From positions 1 to 42,940 of the forward strand of contig CALCCE010000207.1 in the NCBI GenBank assembly GCA_937899835.1: a stretch of 42,940 nt of DNA, in the 5' to 3' direction. Under the pieces are notes generated by a model that worked only from the letters and a program-made list of their open reading frames with translations, was not told where the DNA came from and did not search any database. Positions 10,998 to 28,997 of this stretch are shown piece by piece. Positions within the stretch are counted from its first letter, which is position 1. Every line of letters starts with the position of its first letter. Both the position numbers and the translations under genes were made by a program. The stretch is from an uncultured Flavobacteriales bacterium (lineage in GTDB: Bacteria; Bacteroidota; Bacteroidia; Flavobacteriales_G; Salibacteraceae).

Positions 10998-13376
10998 ATG
11001 CGCCCCAGGCAGAAAATCTTTCTGGTGCTGATTGCTTTATTTCCCTATTTAGGGGCTTTTAGTCAGCATTCTCACCCTCACCCAGGTCCTTGTGGTCAAG
11101 GTCATTTGGAGCAACAACTGATGGATTCAGATCCTGATCTGGCCAACTTTATCCAAGCTGAGGACTTAAGAGCAATCCAAGAACAACAGTCCGGAGCACG
11201 AGCTACTGGTCAGGTGTACGTTGTGCCGGTGGTCTTTCACATTTTACATGACAATGGACCAGAGAATGTTTCGGATTTGAAAGTGAAACAAGCCATTGCT
11301 GACGTCAACCTCGACTTTAGCGGCCGACATCCTGATTTGGATGATGTGGTGGCCGCCTTCCAACCAGTTATTGGAAATGCTGAAATGGAATTTCGGTTAG
11401 CCACCAGAGACCCCAATGGCAATGTGACCAGTGGAATTGTTCGCTACCTCACGACTGATACTTACACCGGCAACGACAATGCCAAGCAGGGAAGAATCTG
11501 GCCGCGTGAAAGTTACTTGAACATTTGGGTCGTTAATGAAATTACCGTCTCCGGTCAATCAGGAATAGCCGGATATTCCTTCCGTCCGGCTGCAGTGGAC
11601 ACTGATCCTGGCCGTGATGGAGTAGTGGTAGAATACAACTACATTGGTGGCAACGACGATTCTCACACTTTGGCTCATGAGATAGGGCATTGGGCTAACT
11701 TGAAACACACTTGGGGAGGTACTAACAACCCCGCTCTTGCCATCAATTGCAACGATGATGATGATGTAACCGATACCCCCAACACCCTCGGACAATCGGG
11801 CGGTTGCAATGTAAGTGCCAACACGTGTGGTTCTTTGGACAACATCCAAAATATCATGAACTACGCCAATTGTCCTGCGATGTTTACCGACGGTCAAATT
11901 ACTCGCATGCGCAATGCTATGACTTCCATTGTGGCTGCCCGTAGCAATTTGTGGACGACCAACAACCTGGCCGCTACCGGAGTAATTGATCTTACGGTGG
12001 CCGATTTTACCGTAAACAATCGGGTGATTTGTAGTGGTGAATCGGTGACTTACACCGATGCTTCTTCCTACGGTGCCACCAATTGGGACTGGACTTTCGA
12101 GTCAGGACAGCCCGGTACGTCTACCGATCAAAACCCTTCTGTACTTTATTATACGCCAGGCATTTATCAGGTGGGATTGGTGGCTTCAGATGGAACCAAC
12201 TCACTTTCTAAAAGTTCGGACAACTTCGTGATGGTAACTTCCGCCACTGGAATTGCATTGCCTTACACCGAAGATTTTGAGCAAAGTAGCAGCTTGCCAA
12301 CCAGCGAATGGTTGGCCAACGATGTGGATGGCGACCTTTTTGGATACGGCCTGGCTTCCAATACCGCGTTTAGTGGGAGCAACTCCGTGAAAATGAACAA
12401 TTTCGGCAGCAACACCGGACGGTTAGATGAGTTGTTGTCTACTTCCTTTGATTTGAGTACGCTAACCGATTTGACCCTAACGTTTCAGGCGGCTTATGCC
12501 GAAAATCCCAACGCATCCGGCAACGATAACTTGCGGGTATACATTTCCGACGATTGTGGTGAAACCTGGACCTTAAAATACATCAGTGGTGGTAGCGGGT
12601 TGGCAACCGTTCCTGCTCAAACCAATCCCTTTACGCCCAACAACGCCAGTCAGTGGGTGCTGCAAACGGTGACCAACTTCAACATCGCCGAATTGACCGA
12701 AAACGTACGTTTTAAGTTTGAGTTCATCAGTGGAGCGGGGAATAACTTGTACCTCGACGATATTAATTTAACGGGGACTTTTCGCAACGAACCCGTGTTG
12801 GAATATCCACCGAATGCCTCTACCGAGCGGCCAGATAATGTAGTATTGGATTGGAAAGCACTCCCTAACGTCAACGGTTACGAATACGAATTGTCAACCG
12901 ACACCAACTTTGGCAATGTTGTTTTCACTGGAACAACGAATTACATTGATAATGGCCACTTCAATACCGATACAGAGATTCCTACCTCAGGATTGACCCA
13001 CGGTCAGAAGTATTTCTGGCGGGTACGGGCCTTGCAGTCAGGAGGGCCTTCTGGTTGGAGTGAAATTTGGTCGTTTACCGTAGATCCGAATGGTGTGAGC
13101 GTCAATGAGATCAACACCTCGATCAGAAATCTCGCAGTATATCCTAACCCGCTGACTGAAGAAAGTGTGTTGGAGTTTGATCTGTCAGAACCGGGCAATC
13201 TGAACCTTGAAGTAACTGATTTGTTTGGTAGAACAGTGCGCGTGATAGCTCAGGGTTCCCATTCTATTGGAAATCATCGTTATGCCATACCCAACCAAGA
13301 GTTGAGTTCAGGAGTTTATTTTATACGCCTTACCCACGGAAACGAAACTCAAACGCTACGCGCCATCGTGCGCTAA
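10998..13376 (+). CDS. Secreted M43 (pappalysin-like) zinc metalloprotease with T9SS sorting domain, copy 1
   Basis: This 792-residue preproprotein begins with a signal peptide (about 1-22, LGAFSQ). The M43 catalytic domain carries the zinc site HEIGHWANLKH (His227, Glu228, His231, His237) and the Met-turn NIMNYANC (Met287). Several Cys residues around 250-290 probably form disulfides. Then come a PKD domain (about 333-415, NWDWTFESG), a jelly-roll-like module (about 420-590, containing ISDDCGETWTLKY and NNLYLDDINLTG), a fibronectin-III-like module (about 600-700, KYFWRVRALQSG) and a type A sorting domain ending VYFIRLTHGNETQTLRAIVR. It is followed 34 nt later by a paralogue with the same domain order. 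The protein is expected to be an extracellular peptidase, its substrate unknown. Confidence 0.92.
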   Translation: MRPRQKIFLVLIALFPYLGAFSQHSHPHPGPCGQGHLEQQLMDSDPDLANFIQAEDLRAIQEQQSGARATGQVYVVPVVFHILHDNGPENVSDLKVKQAIADVNLDFSGRHPDLDDVVAAFQPVIGNAEMEFRLATRDPNGNVTSGIVRYLTTDTYTGNDNAKQGRIWPRESYLNIWVVNEITVSGQSGIAGYSFRPAAVDTDPGRDGVVVEYNYIGGNDDSHTLAHEIGHWANLKHTWGGTNNPALAINCNDDDDVTDTPNTLGQSGGCNVSANTCGSLDNIQNIMNYANCPAMFTDGQITRMRNAMTSIVAARSNLWTTNNLAATGVIDLTVADFTVNNRVICSGESVTYTDASSYGATNWDWTFESGQPGTSTDQNPSVLYYTPGIYQVGLVASDGTNSLSKSSDNFVMVTSATGIALPYTEDFEQSSSLPTSEWLANDVDGDLFGYGLASNTAFSGSNSVKMNNFGSNTGRLDELLSTSFDLSTLTDLTLTFQAAYAENPNASGNDNLRVYISDDCGETWTLKYISGGSGLATVPAQTNPFTPNNASQWVLQTVTNFNIAELTENVRFKFEFISGAGNNLYLDDINLTGTFRNEPVLEYPPNASTERPDNVVLDWKALPNVNGYEYELSTDTNFGNVVFTGTTNYIDNGHFNTDTEIPTSGLTHGQKYFWRVRALQSGGPSGWSEIWSFTVDPNGVSVNEINTSIRNLAVYPNPLTEESVLEFDLSEPGNLNLEVTDLFGRTVRVIAQGSHSIGNHRYAIPNQELSSGVYFIRLTHGNETQTLRAIVR

Positions 13377-13410
13377 TAGCGTTGATATACAATTAAAGGA
13401 CGAACAAGTG

Positions 13411-15813
13411 ATGAAGCGGACAAATAAATTAAGCATAGCTTTCATGTTGCTTTGCCTTATGGCAGCCCTGCCATCGGTGGCGCAGGATTGGTGTGGCTCA
13501 GACCACTACCACGAGCAAAACATGAAAGACCCGGCCACGCGTGCCGCCTACGAAGCAGAGCAATTGAAATTCGATCAGGTTGCACAAGACTTTCTTCACC
13601 AAGGATCGCGCGATGTGGATATCATTCCGGTGGTTTTTCACGTCATTCACGACAACGGGGTGGGCAATATCAGCCGCGATCAATTGCTGGATGGTATCGA
13701 TGTGCTCAACGAAGATTTTCGGCGGACCAATCAGGATGCTTCCAACACCCGCTCGGTGTTTTTACCTTTTGCCGTGGATTCAGAAATTGAATTTCGCATT
13801 GCGCAGCTCGATCCCGATGGTAATTGTACCGACGGTGTCAACCGAATCAATTCCGGTTTAACCAATAGTGCGGACAATGACGTTAAAGGCTTGTCGCGAT
13901 GGCCTTCAAACATGTACATGAACGTTTGGGTGGTTGAAAATATCAATTCTGCGAGCGTCAATGGTATTATTTTAGGATATGCTCAGTTTCCGGGTTCCGG
14001 TTCCTGGAACAACTACGGTATTGTGATTCGCAACGACCGGTTGGGCCGCATCGGTACGGCTGCTACCAACGATGGACGAACCTTTACGCACGAAGTCGGG
14101 CACTGCCTCAACTTGTTGCATACCTTTCAAAGTGGATGTGGCGGCAGTTGTTCTATCTCTGGCGACCGGGTTTGCGATACACCACCGGTTGATCAAAGCA
14201 CCCAAGGGTGTAATCCAAATCAAAACTTATGTAGCAACGATGTGTCTGGCCCGAGTGCTTACACGACGGATGTGCCCGATCAGATCGAAAACTACATGAG
14301 CTACGACGATTGTCAAAACATGTACTCTGCAGGCCAGAAAGCCCGCATGAAAGCAGCTTTGTCCAATTACAGCCAGCTACGGGACCTGGTTTCTGCCAGT
14401 AACCTTGCAGCCACTGGAACCGACGGCAATGATGTGCTCTGTGCCGCCGATTTCAATACAGAATTTACCACGATATGTGTGGGGGAGGCCATTCGTTTCA
14501 ACGACCAATCCTACAACGGGCAAACCACCTGGAACTGGAATTTCCCTGGTGGATTTCCCAGCACTTCTACTCAGGAAGATCCTTTGATTGTTTACAATAC
14601 TCCCGGTATTTACGATGTGAGCCTTACGGTAGGCAATGGAGTGAATACGACGGGCGAAAGCAAGCAAGGGTATATCAAAGTATTGCCAAGTCCTGGGTTT
14701 TATTTGCCCTATCAGGAAGGCTTTGAAAGTACTTCTATTGCCGATGGAGAATGGATCATTAGTTCTCCCAACGGTGGGGCAGAGTTCAAGCAGACGAACG
14801 CTGGCGCTGCCACTGGCCTCTACAGCATCCGCATCGACAATTACAATGGCTTCGATGGCGACATGGACGAACTGGCAAGTTCCTCGTTCGACCTTAGCAC
14901 CATGACGTTTGCCAACCTGGAATTTAAAATGGCTTACGCCACTCGAACCGGGGCTGAAGCCGATCGTTTGTGGCTTTCGGTTTCAACCGATTGTGGGGAA
15001 AACTGGCAATTGCGCTGGGCGGGAGCCGGAGCCGCCATGGCTACTGCTCCACCACATTCCAATTCCTTCTCGCCCACCGCCAGCGAGTGGAATACTATTA
15101 CGGTACCTCTGACAAGCAACTTCTTGCGAGAAAATTTCCGTTTTCGCTTCGAATTCGAAAGTGGAGGAGGCAACAACTTATACATCGATGATATCAACAT
15201 CACCGGTACCTTCAATCCCGTGCCAATTCTGCTCTATCCACCAGATGCATCGCCAGCCGAAGCCCCTGATGTGACCCTCGATTGGAAAGCAGTGATTGGT
15301 GCTGACTTCTACGAATACCAATTGGATACCGATCCCGGTTTTGTTTCTCCCAACCTGGTTAGTGGCACTTTAGCTGCCCTGGGTCCTGATCCTTCTCAAG
15401 CGGATACTGAAATTCCGGTGAATGGTTTGACACCGGGTCAATTGTATTACTGGCGCGTTCGCGCCACGCAAAACGGAGCGCCCTTTTCCTGGAGCAATAC
15501 CTGGGTCTTCACTGTAGACCCCAATGGTGTTGGCTTCAATGAGCTGGCCGAAGAAAAACTCAACCTGGGCGTGTTCCCCAATCCTACAAGTGACGAATCA
15601 TTCGTGCGTTTCAACCTCGATCAATCGAGCGAAGTGCGCCTGGAGTTGATCGACCTCATGGGCCGTCAATTGATGATTCCCGTAACGGGTACACAACTCT
15701 CTGCCGGAGAGCACCAGTATCGGATCAATGCTTCCGAATTGCCCGATGGGGTGTATTTGGTGCAGTTAACGGTGGGTGATCAGCAGTTTCACCAGAAGTT
15801 AGTGGTCCACTAA
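13411..15813 (+). CDS. Secreted M43 zinc metalloprotease with T9SS sorting domain, copy 2
   Basis: This 800-residue paralogue of the preceding gene has the same architecture. It shows a signal peptide (about 1-25, LPSVAQ), the zinc site HEVGHCLNLLH (His227, Glu228, His231, His237) and the Met-turn ENYMSYDDC (Met296). A Cys-rich catalytic insert (GCGGSCSISGDRVCD) is followed by PKD, jelly-roll-like and fibronectin-III-like modules and a type A sorting domain ending VYLVQLTVGDQQFHQKLVVH. An in-frame GTG directly precedes the ATG; I chose the ATG at 13411 because it gives a standard basic signal-peptide start (MKRTNK). The two genes probably share the promoter at 10947-10976, and a strong terminator follows. 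The pair looks like an in-place duplication that has since diverged considerably. Confidence 0.92.
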   Translation: MKRTNKLSIAFMLLCLMAALPSVAQDWCGSDHYHEQNMKDPATRAAYEAEQLKFDQVAQDFLHQGSRDVDIIPVVFHVIHDNGVGNISRDQLLDGIDVLNEDFRRTNQDASNTRSVFLPFAVDSEIEFRIAQLDPDGNCTDGVNRINSGLTNSADNDVKGLSRWPSNMYMNVWVVENINSASVNGIILGYAQFPGSGSWNNYGIVIRNDRLGRIGTAATNDGRTFTHEVGHCLNLLHTFQSGCGGSCSISGDRVCDTPPVDQSTQGCNPNQNLCSNDVSGPSAYTTDVPDQIENYMSYDDCQNMYSAGQKARMKAALSNYSQLRDLVSASNLAATGTDGNDVLCAADFNTEFTTICVGEAIRFNDQSYNGQTTWNWNFPGGFPSTSTQEDPLIVYNTPGIYDVSLTVGNGVNTTGESKQGYIKVLPSPGFYLPYQEGFESTSIADGEWIISSPNGGAEFKQTNAGAATGLYSIRIDNYNGFDGDMDELASSSFDLSTMTFANLEFKMAYATRTGAEADRLWLSVSTDCGENWQLRWAGAGAAMATAPPHSNSFSPTASEWNTITVPLTSNFLRENFRFRFEFESGGGNNLYIDDINITGTFNPVPILLYPPDASPAEAPDVTLDWKAVIGADFYEYQLDTDPGFVSPNLVSGTLAALGPDPSQADTEIPVNGLTPGQLYYWRVRATQNGAPFSWSNTWVFTVDPNGVGFNELAEEKLNLGVFPNPTSDESFVRFNLDQSSEVRLELIDLMGRQLMIPVTGTQLSAGEHQYRINASELPDGVYLVQLTVGDQQFHQKLVVH

Positions 15814-24094: not shown

Positions 24095-25282
24095 TCAATA
24101 CAAAAAGTGGTTGTAAGGAAACCGCTGAGCGTGAATGTTCTTGATGTTGTCGTACAACAATTGGCGCAACTCAGGAATGTTGGCTTTTTCCGTAGCTGAG
24201 ATAAAGATACACGGGTAGTGCGTACGTGCCGCCCAGTAACTGGACAACTCTTCCAGGTTGGAAGCCGGCAATTCGCCCGATTCAATTTCGTCGGGATCGG
24301 GTTCCCGTGGCTGGTACTGATCAATCTTATTGAAAACCATCAAGGTGGGTTTGTCGGTATCGGCAATCTCCTTGAGGGTCTTGTCAACCACTTCGATTTG
24401 TGCTTCGTGACTGGGGTGCGAAATGTCTACTACATGCACCAGAACATCAGATTCGCGTACTTCATCCAAGGTAGATTTAAAGGACTCTACCAGCTGGTGG
24501 GGCAACTTGCGAATGAAACCAACGGTATCCGAAAGTAGAAATGGAAGGTTTTCTACGACCACTTTGCGCACTGTGGTATCCAAGGTGGCAAACAGCTTGT
24601 TTTCAGCAAATACTTCCGACTTGGTGAGCAAGTTCATCAAGGTAGATTTGCCCACGTTGGTGTAGCCTACCAAGGCCACCCGCACCAGTTTTCCCCGGTT
24701 TTTGCGTTGGGTCGCCTTTTGCTTGTCGATGGTTTTGAGCTTCACTTTCAGGCGGGAAATTTTATCCCGAATCACCCGGCGGTCGGTTTCAATCTCGGTT
24801 TCTCCCGGACCACGCATCCCGATACCTCCTCGCTGACGCTCCAGGTGTGTCCACATGCGGGTGAGGCGCGGAAGTAGGTATTGGTATTGTGCCAGTTCTA
24901 CCTGAGCCCGGGCGTGTGCCGTTCGGGCGCGGTTGGCAAAAATATCGAGGATCAGGTTGCTGCGGTCAAGGATTTTGCAAGACAAGATGCGCTCAATGTT
25001 GCGCAGTTGGGTAGGGGTGAGCTCATCGTCGAATATGACCATAGACACCTTGTGCTCCTTCACGTAGGCGGCAACTTCTTCTATCTTGCCCGAGCCGATG
25101 AAAGTTCGGGTATCGGGCCGGTCGAGGCGCTGGTAATACTTGCGTACGGTAAACGCCCCGGCCGTTTTGGCCAGAAAAGCCAATTCGTTCAGGTATTCGC
25201 GGGCCCTGTCTTCGTCTTGCCCCTGGTTGATCAAACCGATCAGAACCGCAGTTTCTTGTTTGGTAGAGGTGTCGGTATTCAA
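24095..25282 (-). CDS. hflX: Ribosome-associated GTPase HflX
   Basis: HflX is a GTPase that binds the 50S subunit and can split stalled ribosomes. The 395-residue protein shows the HflX-specific N-terminal domain (AGAFTVRKYYQRLDRPDTRTFIGSGK, with IFDDELTPTQLRNIE) and the linker RGGIGMRGPGETEIETDRR (151-169). The G motifs follow: G1 GYTNVGKS (206-213), G3 DTVG (252-255) and G4 NKID (318-321). All are intact. The start is TTG: no ATG or GTG lies between the upstream in-frame sequence and the conserved domain. The decayed cytochrome c gene ends 11 nt upstream on the same strand, so hflX is probably transcribed through it. Confidence 0.95.
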   Translation of the reverse strand: MNTDTSTKQETAVLIGLINQGQDEDRAREYLNELAFLAKTAGAFTVRKYYQRLDRPDTRTFIGSGKIEEVAAYVKEHKVSMVIFDDELTPTQLRNIERILSCKILDRSNLILDIFANRARTAHARAQVELAQYQYLLPRLTRMWTHLERQRGGIGMRGPGETEIETDRRVIRDKISRLKVKLKTIDKQKATQRKNRGKLVRVALVGYTNVGKSTLMNLLTKSEVFAENKLFATLDTTVRKVVVENLPFLLSDTVGFIRKLPHQLVESFKSTLDEVRESDVLVHVVDISHPSHEAQIEVVDKTLKEIADTDKPTLMVFNKIDQYQPREPDPDEIESGELPASNLEELSSYWAARTHYPCIFISATEKANIPELRQLLYDNIKNIHAQRFPYNHFLY

Positions 25283-25293
25283 ATTAAAAAGTG

Positions 25294-25680
25294 TTATTCG
25301 GCAGCTTTGCTAAAAGTATCGAGAAATTCTGCGATGGCTTTCATTTCTTTTTTGGATAATGTGCTACCGTAACCTGCTATGCCGTTACGGATGATTGAAA
25401 TGCACTCTTTGATGTTAAGGTTAGAAGCGCTGAGATCTTTGGCTAATGAGGGTCTTCAATCTCCCTTGGCACCGTGGCAAACTTTGCAATTCAGGTGGTA
25501 TAATAGTTGTGCATTGATCTTTTCTGTCGCTGGGTTGGCGGCACCAGATTGTGCTTTGGCGGGGCCTGTACGGGAGCAGGCAACCATCGGCACTATTAAC
25601 CCAATAAATGCTGTTAGGTAACCAAGTCGCACTAGCGTCACGCTACCGAAACAGTTGAAAGTGGTTTGAGCAACCGACAC
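25294..25680 (-). pseudogene. c-type cytochrome lipoprotein, interrupted by in-frame TGA after CxxCH
   Basis: Read in one frame, this region encodes a 128-codon c-type cytochrome. It has a lipoprotein signal (hydrophobic TAFIGLIVPM, lipobox Cys in MVACS), an Ala/Pro/Gly-rich linker, the heme-binding motif CKVCH within LNCKVCHGAKGD, then TGA at 25456-25458, then RPSLAKDLSASNLNIKECI up to a natural TAA at 25294-25296. The sequence after the stop is plainly the rest of a cytochrome c fold, including YGSTLSKKEMKAIAEFL. The TGA falls where the family usually has Gly (GDG), so one G-to-T change from GGA explains it. The segment NGIAGYG has Ile-Ala where Met-Pro is usual, so the axial Met ligand also appears lost. 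Possible starts are GTG codons at 25680, 25641 or 25632. A sequencing error could explain the stop but not the missing Met. Confidence 0.8.
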
Positions 25681-25867
25681 AATTGGACAAAAGGCCTTTT
25701 GAAAAAGTACTTCTCTCTTGCGATCGGTCTATTCCAGTCAACGACATTTTGTCCCTCCATCCCACGAAGGCTAGATGACCGTCACCTTCAGCAAGCGCAA
25801 AACTGCTCAGCGTAAGCCAGTGTGTGCGTGAATAAGAACGAGGTACATTGGAATGACGTTAAGGCCT

Positions 25868-25875
25868 CAAAGGTA
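25868..25875 (-). promoter_or_regulatory. -7 box (TACCTTTG) upstream of the cytochrome c remnant and hflX
   Basis: On the minus strand TACCTTTG matches TAnnTTTG exactly. It lies about 190-235 nt before the possible cytochrome c starts, which would leave a long leader. It may now serve mainly to transcribe hflX. Confidence 0.35.
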
Positions 25876-25961
25876 GACTAAAATTGATTTTTGAGTGAAC
25901 TATCACCGGGGTTTTCAACCGCCAATAGTCCTGCGAATTTCAGTACTTTAGCCCACCTCTT

Positions 25962-28900
25962 ATGATCCGTATTTTCTCGCTTTTTGTTTTGCTTTGGCTG
26001 GCAAACGCTACCGTATTGCTGGCACAGAAAACCTTTCCGGTCAACGGAGCGGCCAACCCGCAACCGTCGGTTACTGCCTTCATTCATGCGGTGGTGCACC
26101 TCGATGCCAGTACCACCTACGACGATGCCAGCTTACTTATTAAAGAAGGCCGAATTATAGCCGCTGGACCGGGGCTCAAAATTCCGGAAGGAGCGCGCAT
26201 CATTGACCTCAAAGGCAAGCACCTCTATCCTTCTTTGATTGACTTGTATGCGGATTATGGCGTTCCAGGACCTCCGAAAAAGAAAAAAGGGCAGGGGCGT
26301 TCAGTACAACTGAATTCCAGTACCGAGGGCGCATTTGGTTGGAACCAGGCCATTCGGCCACAGGTGTCGGCTTCCGATGTTTTTCGGGTAGACCCTAAAA
26401 AAGCCGGTCAGTTGCGCAAAATGGGATTTGGAACGGTGCTCACCCACGTTCGGGACGGCATCATGCGTGGTACCGGCACTTTGGTCACCCTAAGTGAGCG
26501 TAACGAGAATTATGTGATGCTGGGCGCAGCGGTCACCAGCCACTATTCGTTCAGAAAAGGCAGTTCGCAACAGCGCTACCCTTCTTCTGAAATGGGAAGC
26601 ATCGCCCTCTTGCGGCAAACCTTTTTGGATGCCGAGTGGTATACCCGCCACCAACCGCGTGAAGAATACAACCTCAGCCTGGCGGCTTACCTCAATCAAC
26701 AAGAGTTGCCCGCTATTTTTGAAGTTCCGGATTATCATAGCGCTCTGCGTGCTGATAAGTTGGGCGATGCCTACGGCAAGCAATTTATCCTCAAAGGAAA
26801 AGGAGATGAATACAAACGCATCGCGTCCATTTTGGCTACCGAGGCCACCTATATTATTCCGTTGACTTTTCCCAAACCCTACGACATTGAAGACCCTTTC
26901 ACGGCCATGTGGGTGCCGCTGGAAGACATGAAACACTGGGAACTGGCACCGGCCAATGCAGCACTTTTGGCAGAAGCAGGCGTTCCCTTTGTGCTCACTT
27001 CCGACGGATTGAAATCGGAAAAAGAATTTTGGAAAAACTTGCGGAAAGCTCATCTACACGGTCTTTCCGATTCGCTGGCCTTAGAGGCGCTCACGATGGG
27101 CCCGGCCCGAATCTTGGGAATGGAAGCAGAACTCGGCAGTTTGGCACCCGGTAAGTGGGCCAATTTTTTGATTACTTCCAAACCCTTGTTCGACTCGCGG
27201 TGTCAGATTTATGAGAATTGGGTACAAGGCAAGCGCCACACCATAAAAGAACTCAACCGTCCTCAAATTCTGGGGGAGTACGACCTAAACATTGACGCTA
27301 AGGTGTACGACCTCACGGTGAAAGGCAGTGCAGACAAGCCCAAAGGCGAATTGAAAATTCCCGGTGAGAAAGAGGCGTTGAAAGTAACCGTGCAGTCCAA
27401 AGGGGATTTGATCACGTTGGTCATTCCTTTCGATTCTGCTGCAGGGGGTACCTTGCGCTTGAGCGGAAAGATCAGCTACAACGGCGGCCTCTGGGACGGA
27501 CAGGCGCAGCAGCCCGATGATAATTGGGTGTTGTGGAGTGCGATTTTGGACGAATCGTTGCCAGAAAAACCTGCTAGGCAGCCCAAGACGCCCGAGTTGG
27601 GCGTTACCTGGATGCCAAACGTAGCCTACGGAAGTCCCGATACCCTGAAACCGGAACGCGTCCTGATTCGCAACGCTACCCTCTGGACCAATACGGATGC
27701 CGGAATACTAAATAATACGGACCTGCTAATTGAAAGCGGTAAAATTGCCCGCATCGGAACCGGTTTGGCCGTAGAAGGCGAATACCGTGAATACGATGCG
27801 CAAGGCAAACACCTGACACCGGGTATCATCGACGAGCATTCGCACATTGCCATTCACCGGGGCGTGAACGAAGGCAGCCATGCCGTTACTGCGGAAGTTA
27901 GCATTGGCGATGTGGTGAATTCGGATGACGTGAACCTCTACCGCCAATTGTCGGGAGGAGTTACCGCTGCTCAATTGCTGCACGGTTCGGCCAACCCCAT
28001 TGGCGGCCGGTCGGCCCTCATCAAATTCCGCTGGGGCCAGCCTGCCGATTCCATGCTGATCGATGATGCTGCCGGCTTTATCAAGTTTGCTTTGGGCGAA
28101 AACGTGAAACAATCGAACTGGGGCATTGCCCGGCCTACCCGTTTTCCGCAAACCCGCATGGGCGTGGAGCAGGTGTACTACGATGCTTTTATCCGGGCAA
28201 GTGAATACGATGAAGCCTGGAAAACCTACCAATCGCTGAAGAAAAAAGAAAAGGAAAATACTTTACCGCCCCGGGAGAACTTGCAGCTGCAATACCTCGC
28301 TGAAATCCTGAACAGTGAGCGCTTCATCTCCTGCCACTCTTACGTGCAATCAGAGATCAACATGCTCATGCATGTGGCCGATAGCATGGGCTTTCGGGTC
28401 AATACCTTTACCCACATCTTAGAAGGCTACAAAGTAGCGGACAAGATGGTAGAGCATGGAGCCGGCGGTTCCACCTTTTCCGATTGGTGGGCTTACAAGT
28501 TTGAGGTGAACGATGCCATCCCTTACAATGCCGCCATGCTCAACGATCAGGGCGTGGTAACGGCCATCAATTCGGATGATGCCGAAATGGGGCGAAGGCT
28601 CAACCAGGAAGCGGCCAAAACCGTGAAATACGGCGGTGCTTCCGAAGAGGACGCCCTAAAAATGGTCACCCTTAACCCGGCCAAACTGCTGCACCTCGAC
28701 CACCGCATGGGAAGTCTCGCGGTAGGTATGGATGCCGATATCGTGATTTGGACTGACCATCCGCTTTCGATCTATGCCCGTGCCGAACAGACTTATATTG
28801 ATGGGATTCTGTTTTTTAGTTTGGATCGTGATACCGCTCTTCGGGTAGCGATGCAAGCGGAACGGCAACGGCTCATTGAAAAAATGCTGGCCGCCAAAAA

Positions 28901-28997
28901 GGCCGGAGAGAAAACCCAACCCTTGCAAGTAAAGGAACCCAAATTGTACCACTGCGATACCCTGGAGGACCAACATGAAACAGATCATAGCCATTAG
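25962..28997 (+). CDS. Secreted or periplasmic double-domain amidohydrolase, N-terminal half degenerate
   Basis: This 1011-residue exported protein (signal peptide about 1-21, TVLLAQ) contains two amidohydrolase-type domains. The C-terminal one (about 560-980) has PGIIDEHSHIA with the metal-binding HxH at His626/His628, further candidate ligands His792 (SCHSY) and His818 (FTHILEG), and INSDDAEMGRR supplying a metal-site Asp. The N-terminal one (about 45-430) keeps the fold's landmarks (LYPSLIDLYADYG, LTMGPARILGMEAELGSLAPGKWANFLI) but lacks HxH, so it is probably catalytically inactive. Related enzymes hydrolyse C-N bonds in cyclic amides, dipeptides or imidazolones; the substrate here is unknown. 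The last 23 bases overlap the next gene, also an amidohydrolase, indicating a co-transcribed pair. A near-consensus -7 box (TACTTTAG) lies at 25944-25951. Confidence 0.88.
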   Translation: MIRIFSLFVLLWLANATVLLAQKTFPVNGAANPQPSVTAFIHAVVHLDASTTYDDASLLIKEGRIIAAGPGLKIPEGARIIDLKGKHLYPSLIDLYADYGVPGPPKKKKGQGRSVQLNSSTEGAFGWNQAIRPQVSASDVFRVDPKKAGQLRKMGFGTVLTHVRDGIMRGTGTLVTLSERNENYVMLGAAVTSHYSFRKGSSQQRYPSSEMGSIALLRQTFLDAEWYTRHQPREEYNLSLAAYLNQQELPAIFEVPDYHSALRADKLGDAYGKQFILKGKGDEYKRIASILATEATYIIPLTFPKPYDIEDPFTAMWVPLEDMKHWELAPANAALLAEAGVPFVLTSDGLKSEKEFWKNLRKAHLHGLSDSLALEALTMGPARILGMEAELGSLAPGKWANFLITSKPLFDSRCQIYENWVQGKRHTIKELNRPQILGEYDLNIDAKVYDLTVKGSADKPKGELKIPGEKEALKVTVQSKGDLITLVIPFDSAAGGTLRLSGKISYNGGLWDGQAQQPDDNWVLWSAILDESLPEKPARQPKTPELGVTWMPNVAYGSPDTLKPERVLIRNATLWTNTDAGILNNTDLLIESGKIARIGTGLAVEGEYREYDAQGKHLTPGIIDEHSHIAIHRGVNEGSHAVTAEVSIGDVVNSDDVNLYRQLSGGVTAAQLLHGSANPIGGRSALIKFRWGQPADSMLIDDAAGFIKFALGENVKQSNWGIARPTRFPQTRMGVEQVYYDAFIRASEYDEAWKTYQSLKKKEKENTLPPRENLQLQYLAEILNSERFISCHSYVQSEINMLMHVADSMGFRVNTFTHILEGYKVADKMVEHGAGGSTFSDWWAYKFEVNDAIPYNAAMLNDQGVVTAINSDDAEMGRRLNQEAAKTVKYGGASEEDALKMVTLNPAKLLHLDHRMGSLAVGMDADIVIWTDHPLSIYARAEQTYIDGILFFSLDRDTALRVAMQAERQRLIEKMLAAKKAGEKTQPLQVKEPKLYHCDTLEDQHETDHSH

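Follow-up and report, generated by a model that had tools for sequence, protein, structure and literature searches.

This locus raises a simple question: does the in-frame TGA that interrupts a recognizable cytochrome c frame reflect a sequencing error, a recoded codon, a remodelled product or the decay of a gene? The window, meaning the whole stretch of DNA analysed, is an entire contig of 42,940 bases from a genome of 6.9 Mb in 307 contigs. Its named relatives are Bacteroidota, and it encodes secretion-tail domains (PF18962), which are typical of Bacteroidota. Our analysis indicates that the window very probably holds a decayed two-gene operon segment, composed of one gene for a cytochrome c lipoprotein and one for a small membrane protein, the latter named mem here, both of which fell into disuse.

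The translated frame, on the minus strand from 25680 to 25294, reads ...VACSRTGPAKAQSGAANPATEKINAQLLYHLNCKVCHGAKGD*RPSLAKDLSASNLNIKECISIIRNGIAGYGSTLSKKEMKAIAEFLDTFSKAAE* (asterisks denote stop codons) and comprises, 5' to 3', a lipoprotein-type signal, CKVCH, TGA, a recognizable C-terminal half and TAA. Translation thus bears out the frame described in the initial annotation, including its lipobox, as well as the reported spacing of 11 nt between the TAA and the TTG start of hflX at 25282; the minus-strand orientation and the broken gene upstream had gone unmentioned. The features of this part of the locus are as follows:

24095–25282, minus strand: hflX, an intact GTPase gene of 395 codons with a TTG start and a TGA end
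25294–25632, minus strand: relic of a cytochrome c lipoprotein gene (frame, homology, profile match and alignment)
25296–25294, minus strand: TAA ending the cytochrome relic
25378–25380, minus strand: Ile codon ATA at the axial Met column, beside an in-frame gap of three residues (alignment)
25456–25458, minus strand: in-frame TGA of the cytochrome relic (translated frame)
25474–25488, minus strand: heme-binding motif CKVCH, kept (translated frame and alignment)
25578–25576, minus strand: lipobox Cys codon
25632–25630, minus strand: possible GTG start of the cytochrome relic
25962–28997, plus strand: divergent amidohydrolase gene

With X placed at the TGA, the relic matches PF13442 (Cytochrome_CBB3; E = 6.7e-8, 33.2 bits, Pfam cut-off 27) and PF00034 (E = 2.5e-4, 22.7 bits, Pfam cut-off 21.3), and CKVCH together with these matches identifies a CxxCH heme attachment motif. 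The relic shares 38% identity (E = 2.5e-11) with an intact gene from another genome of the order, where the start of hflX comes next, at the edge of the contig. The relic is homologous to genes that are intact at the same chromosomal place in relatives. No second cytochrome copy was found in its own genome, where the next best match had an E value of 0.6. With the hflX-adjacent monoheme cytochromes c of Bacteroidota (PF13442/PF00034), the relic shares CxxCH, the lipobox, much of the C-terminal half and the location directly upstream of hflX, but it differs from them in having an in-frame stop, no axial Met, a three-residue gap and two mostly conserved glycines lost.

To describe these differences by column, we aligned the relic with 27 distinct intact hflX-adjacent counterparts (31 found, with 4 duplicates dropped). 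Two stops that the homology search flagged in relatives were discounted, the one in L016 being the normal gene end and the one in L031 lying in a frame that reads intact. At the axial Met column, all 27 counterparts have Met and the window has Ile; the three residues directly preceding this column are absent from the window, and two mostly conserved glycines (21 of 27 and 23 of 27) are replaced by Arg and Leu. The relic thus has neither the uninterrupted frame nor the axial Met of a functional monoheme cytochrome c, and it has been inactivated more than once independently, by the stop and by the loss of Met with its gap. When each sequence was scored against a leave-one-out profile, the window ranked lowest of 28, with 66.3 bits compared with 71.7–108.3 for the intact proteins.

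The same alignment recasts part of the initial annotation. Its report of a missing axial Met is strengthened by the invariance of this residue and by the loss of the three residues before it, and a search among the 27 for a relative with an intact frame and no Met found none. The claim that the TGA replaces the Gly of a GDG motif does not hold: the TGA column contains Leu (12), Lys (9), Ala (5) or Pro (1) and never Gly, and the invariant Gly, located two columns earlier, is kept in the window. The argument that a single base change from Gly produced the stop falls with it. The annotation had also expected Met-Pro-x-Tyr/Phe-Gly at the axial segment; the closest counterparts (L010, L011, L012 and L014) read Met-Ala-Gly-Tyr, so Ala-Gly-Tyr is normal and in this segment the loss concerns Met and the residues before it, nothing else.

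The codon-position signal of the relic is eroded. Its third-position GC is 0.43, compared with a mean of 0.57 across 159 half-overlapping windows of equal length from 20 mechanically listed long ORFs, only 2 of which are as low; GC at the first and second positions does not stand out in the same comparison. The approximately 112 codons of the relic contain a single stop and residual similarity is good, pointing to recent decay or to a constraint still in force.

The neighbouring stretch contains the second relic. In several relatives, the amidohydrolase gene and the cytochrome gene are separated by our mem, which has about 140 codons and encodes a small membrane protein, giving the order mem, cytochrome, hflX. 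Ten aligned members share three invariant histidines (H9, H53 and H86). Family matches are weak and scattered, each occurring in one of ten intact members, with COX15-CtaA the best (E = 6.1e-4) and the best NCBIfam match at E = 0.0031. The uncharacterized gene is present at hflX in 30 of the 32 same-family loci L040–L068 and L164–L166, and COX15-CtaA, its best weak match, is heme-related. In the window, a relic corresponding to the first 49 or so codons of mem lies in the interval that separates the cytochrome relic from the divergent amidohydrolase gene:

25703–25848, minus strand: mem relic (colinear similarity to the mem of relatives, shuffle test)
25848–25774, minus strand: first part of the mem relic, MYLVLIHAHTGLR*AVLRLLKVTVI
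25809–25807, minus strand: in-frame TGA of the mem relic
25771–25703, minus strand: second part of the mem relic, in another frame, AFVGWRDKMSLTGIDRSQERSTF

The relic is colinear with the mem of relatives over residues 1–25 (L113) and 27–49 (L074). Its best score, 25.8 bits, was reached in none of 1,000 dinucleotide shuffles of the stretch, and the mean score across 50 mem queries, duplicates among them, was equalled in 3 of 1,000. It was found by single-sequence comparison with the short stretch and then shuffle-tested; a profile search of the whole window, with stops as X, missed it and gave a best match elsewhere in the window at E = 0.19. Like intact mem, the relic has the first 49 or so residues, including an H.HSGLR-like start, but the rest, including two of the three invariant histidines, is absent. 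Its lesions comprise a stop, at a position occupied by Trp or Tyr in relatives, together with a shifted frame and the loss of the remaining 90 or so codons, about two thirds of the length. Similarity in place and order combined with a broken frame marks this stretch as a pseudogene of mem. Elsewhere in the genome, mem had no match at E ≤ 10, in a search that had no positive control of its own, though its query finds mem in other genomes of the family.

These lesions bear directly on the alternatives to decay. A sequencing or assembly error, with the cytochrome gene intact and the TGA a miscalled base, has in its favour that the lesions of both relics are known from one genome assembly, whose 307 contigs are the sole source of the sequence. 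One wrong base, however, explains neither the missing Met and three-residue gap nor the separate lesions of mem, making this explanation very unlikely. Several independent cytochrome lesions next to a broken neighbour argue for real decay over error alone, the view that the initial annotation had favoured on fewer observations.

It is similarly improbable that the gene has been remodelled and now yields a CxxCH-bearing lipoprotein precursor, some 58 residues long, with a new role outside electron transfer. Both the lipobox and CKVCH are intact and lie upstream of the stop, as such a product would have them, but third-position GC is eroded, the adjoining mem is broken and no short-form relative was seen in a scan of open frames of at least 75 codons, a limit that would miss one.

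That the TGA is instead read as an amino acid, through selenocysteine, tryptophan or read-through, and a heme protein made is extremely unlikely, for although the frame stays open beyond the TGA and retains its family match, and the TGA of the mem relic at a Trp/Tyr column brings tryptophan into consideration, the TGA column is Cys or Trp in none of the 27 counterparts, no tRNA-Sec scored above the cut-off among 150 of 795 candidates scored in the genome, which argues against a selenoprotein, and TGA ends hflX and one other of the 20 long ORFs of the window, which, with the frame shift and truncation of mem, leads us to reject TGA as Trp. Eight sub-threshold tRNA-Sec matches were Ser, Leu, Tyr, Phe and Glu tRNAs according to ARAGORN. 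Read-through would also leave the protein without its Met ligand and so, as had been argued before, would restore no heme protein with Met ligation. Each of the three alternatives, error alone, recoding and a short working product, is contradicted by one or more of the points tested.

Decay of both genes leaves the question of how the intact hflX gene is expressed. The TTG start of hflX could be taken as a sign of its own decay, which we rejected because 13 of 73 other locus rows, counting duplicates, likewise have no ATG near the hflX start. One candidate element lies upstream of both relics:

25868–25875, minus strand: TACCTTTG, candidate -7 element (TAnnTTTG) of the old operon promoter (motif search, conserved spacing)

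This octamer begins 27 nt before the ATG of the mem relic and is the sole TAnnTTTG on the minus strand of 25282–25980. In relatives, 45 of 51 distinct loci carry TAnnTTTG in the 100 nt that precede mem, compared with 4 of 51 for a control stretch inside mem of the same loci. The motif starts 20–31 nt upstream of mem in 41 of these loci, with mem starts picked by script and six of the 51 having no motif. In Flavobacterium psychrophilum, TAnnTTTG is described as the consensus for the sigmaA -7 box (PMC9723704). TACCTTTG conforms to this Bacteroidota sigmaA -7 element. The -33 element of Bacteroidota sigmaA promoters contains TTG; the 32 bases before the -7 element of the window have no TTG, and this half of the promoter was not recovered there. 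Among relatives, 12 of 43 have TTG in the tested stretch.

Given a -7 element at a normal distance from the ATG of the mem relic, hflX is most likely transcribed from it, and its probable use by hflX would account for the survival of the promoter. On the basis of motif and spacing, we think it fairly probable that TACCTTTG marks an active promoter kept by selection for hflX expression. The suggestion in the initial annotation that a promoter was kept for hflX thereby gains a candidate element at conserved spacing.

To place the decay in context, we investigated the distribution of the neighbourhood. A cytochrome search of 100 genomes, the window's own included, gave matches at E ≤ 0.1 in 54, and ranks 1, 2 and 5 after the window belonged to three genomes from a different family within the order (38, 36 and 36% identity). 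Of 29 relative loci examined (L010–L038), 25 have hflX beside the cytochrome gene, and 15 of these 25 have an amidohydrolase gene beyond mem or the cytochrome. These loci were picked by their cytochrome and are therefore silent on how common it is. When the 80 loci best matching the amidohydrolase were taken instead, 11 had hflX, of which 10 had mem and 2 an intact cytochrome. Among the 27 distinct loci in which an intact cytochrome gene precedes hflX, mem was detectable in 12.

The window's own family comprised 34 other genomes; one gave no hflX and one only a partial hflX, leaving 32 loci. With one hflX locus per genome, none of the 32 had an intact cytochrome frame directly upstream of hflX, and 30 of 32 had mem, indicating that the pair is not indispensable. 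One of these genomes (G007, L041) has two hflX copies, and the copy examined has neither mem nor a cytochrome upstream; in L068, a chance CxxCH occurs in a 72-codon frame overlapping mem. Of four genomes from a different family of this order, mem without a cytochrome before hflX occurs in two, while one locus is incomplete and one genome gave no hflX. In a tree of 72 HflX proteins, the 32 same-family proteins form a group that excludes the window (96/96 support; recovered in 97% of 200 bootstrap trees), placing the window outside them, although a midpoint-rooted tree of one gene is weak evidence for species placement. No congener was present for comparison among the 100 genomes of the cytochrome search, and the best identity in the amidohydrolase scan was 53% among the best 80 matches, from which own or very near records were possibly left out. 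The simplest reading is that the cytochrome is dispensable in more than one lineage, being traceless in the relatives examined and decayed together with mem here.

Collectively, these observations suggest the following history. In an ancestor, mem, the cytochrome c lipoprotein gene and hflX would have been read in one direction, probably from one promoter, an arrangement still found in some other Bacteroidota; the mem product may have been a b-type heme protein. The pair would then have lost its use in the window's lineage, mem losing its frame and about two thirds of its length, and the cytochrome gene gaining a stop after the heme motif and losing the axial Met and three neighbouring residues. 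The last gene, hflX, is intact, and the -7 element of the operon is still in place, so that transcription of hflX most likely begins there and runs through some 580 nt of fossil leader. The two relics themselves presumably make no functional product.

A broader reading, which we put forward tentatively and which is somewhat less likely than not to hold in full, is that mem and the cytochrome c lipoprotein make up a previously undescribed redox pair of Bacteroidota, co-transcribed with hflX from one conserved promoter, with the cytochrome lost in some lineages and both genes fossil here, where the promoter would survive for hflX alone. If so, a housekeeping GTPase would be driven through a fossil leader. 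The mem, cytochrome c and hflX neighbourhood, present in several families of Bacteroidota, raises the question of why a cytochrome should accompany the gene for a ribosome-associated GTPase, and could be used to ask what goes missing once the cytochrome is lost.

Bacterial pseudogenes that arise by disuse upstream of an intact gene are a known kind, and the window is no different from them in kind, likewise having several lesions in two adjacent genes, an intact downstream gene and a promoter-like element that was kept. Literature listings on hflX with cytochrome c and on cytochrome c pseudogenes neither named this operon nor described it as decayed. The locus adds one more case to a familiar process, common gene decay observed before its completion. 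What appeared to be a puzzling in-frame stop becomes a clear case of operon decay, with a promoter element that would have outlived the genes it first served.

Across the rest of the window (1–42,940), no Rfam family reached its gathering score. At 10998–15813 on the plus strand, two large genes of 792 and 801 aa stand in tandem, both encoding Peptidase_M43, PKD and Por_Secre_tail domains, and they likely represent a tandem duplication.
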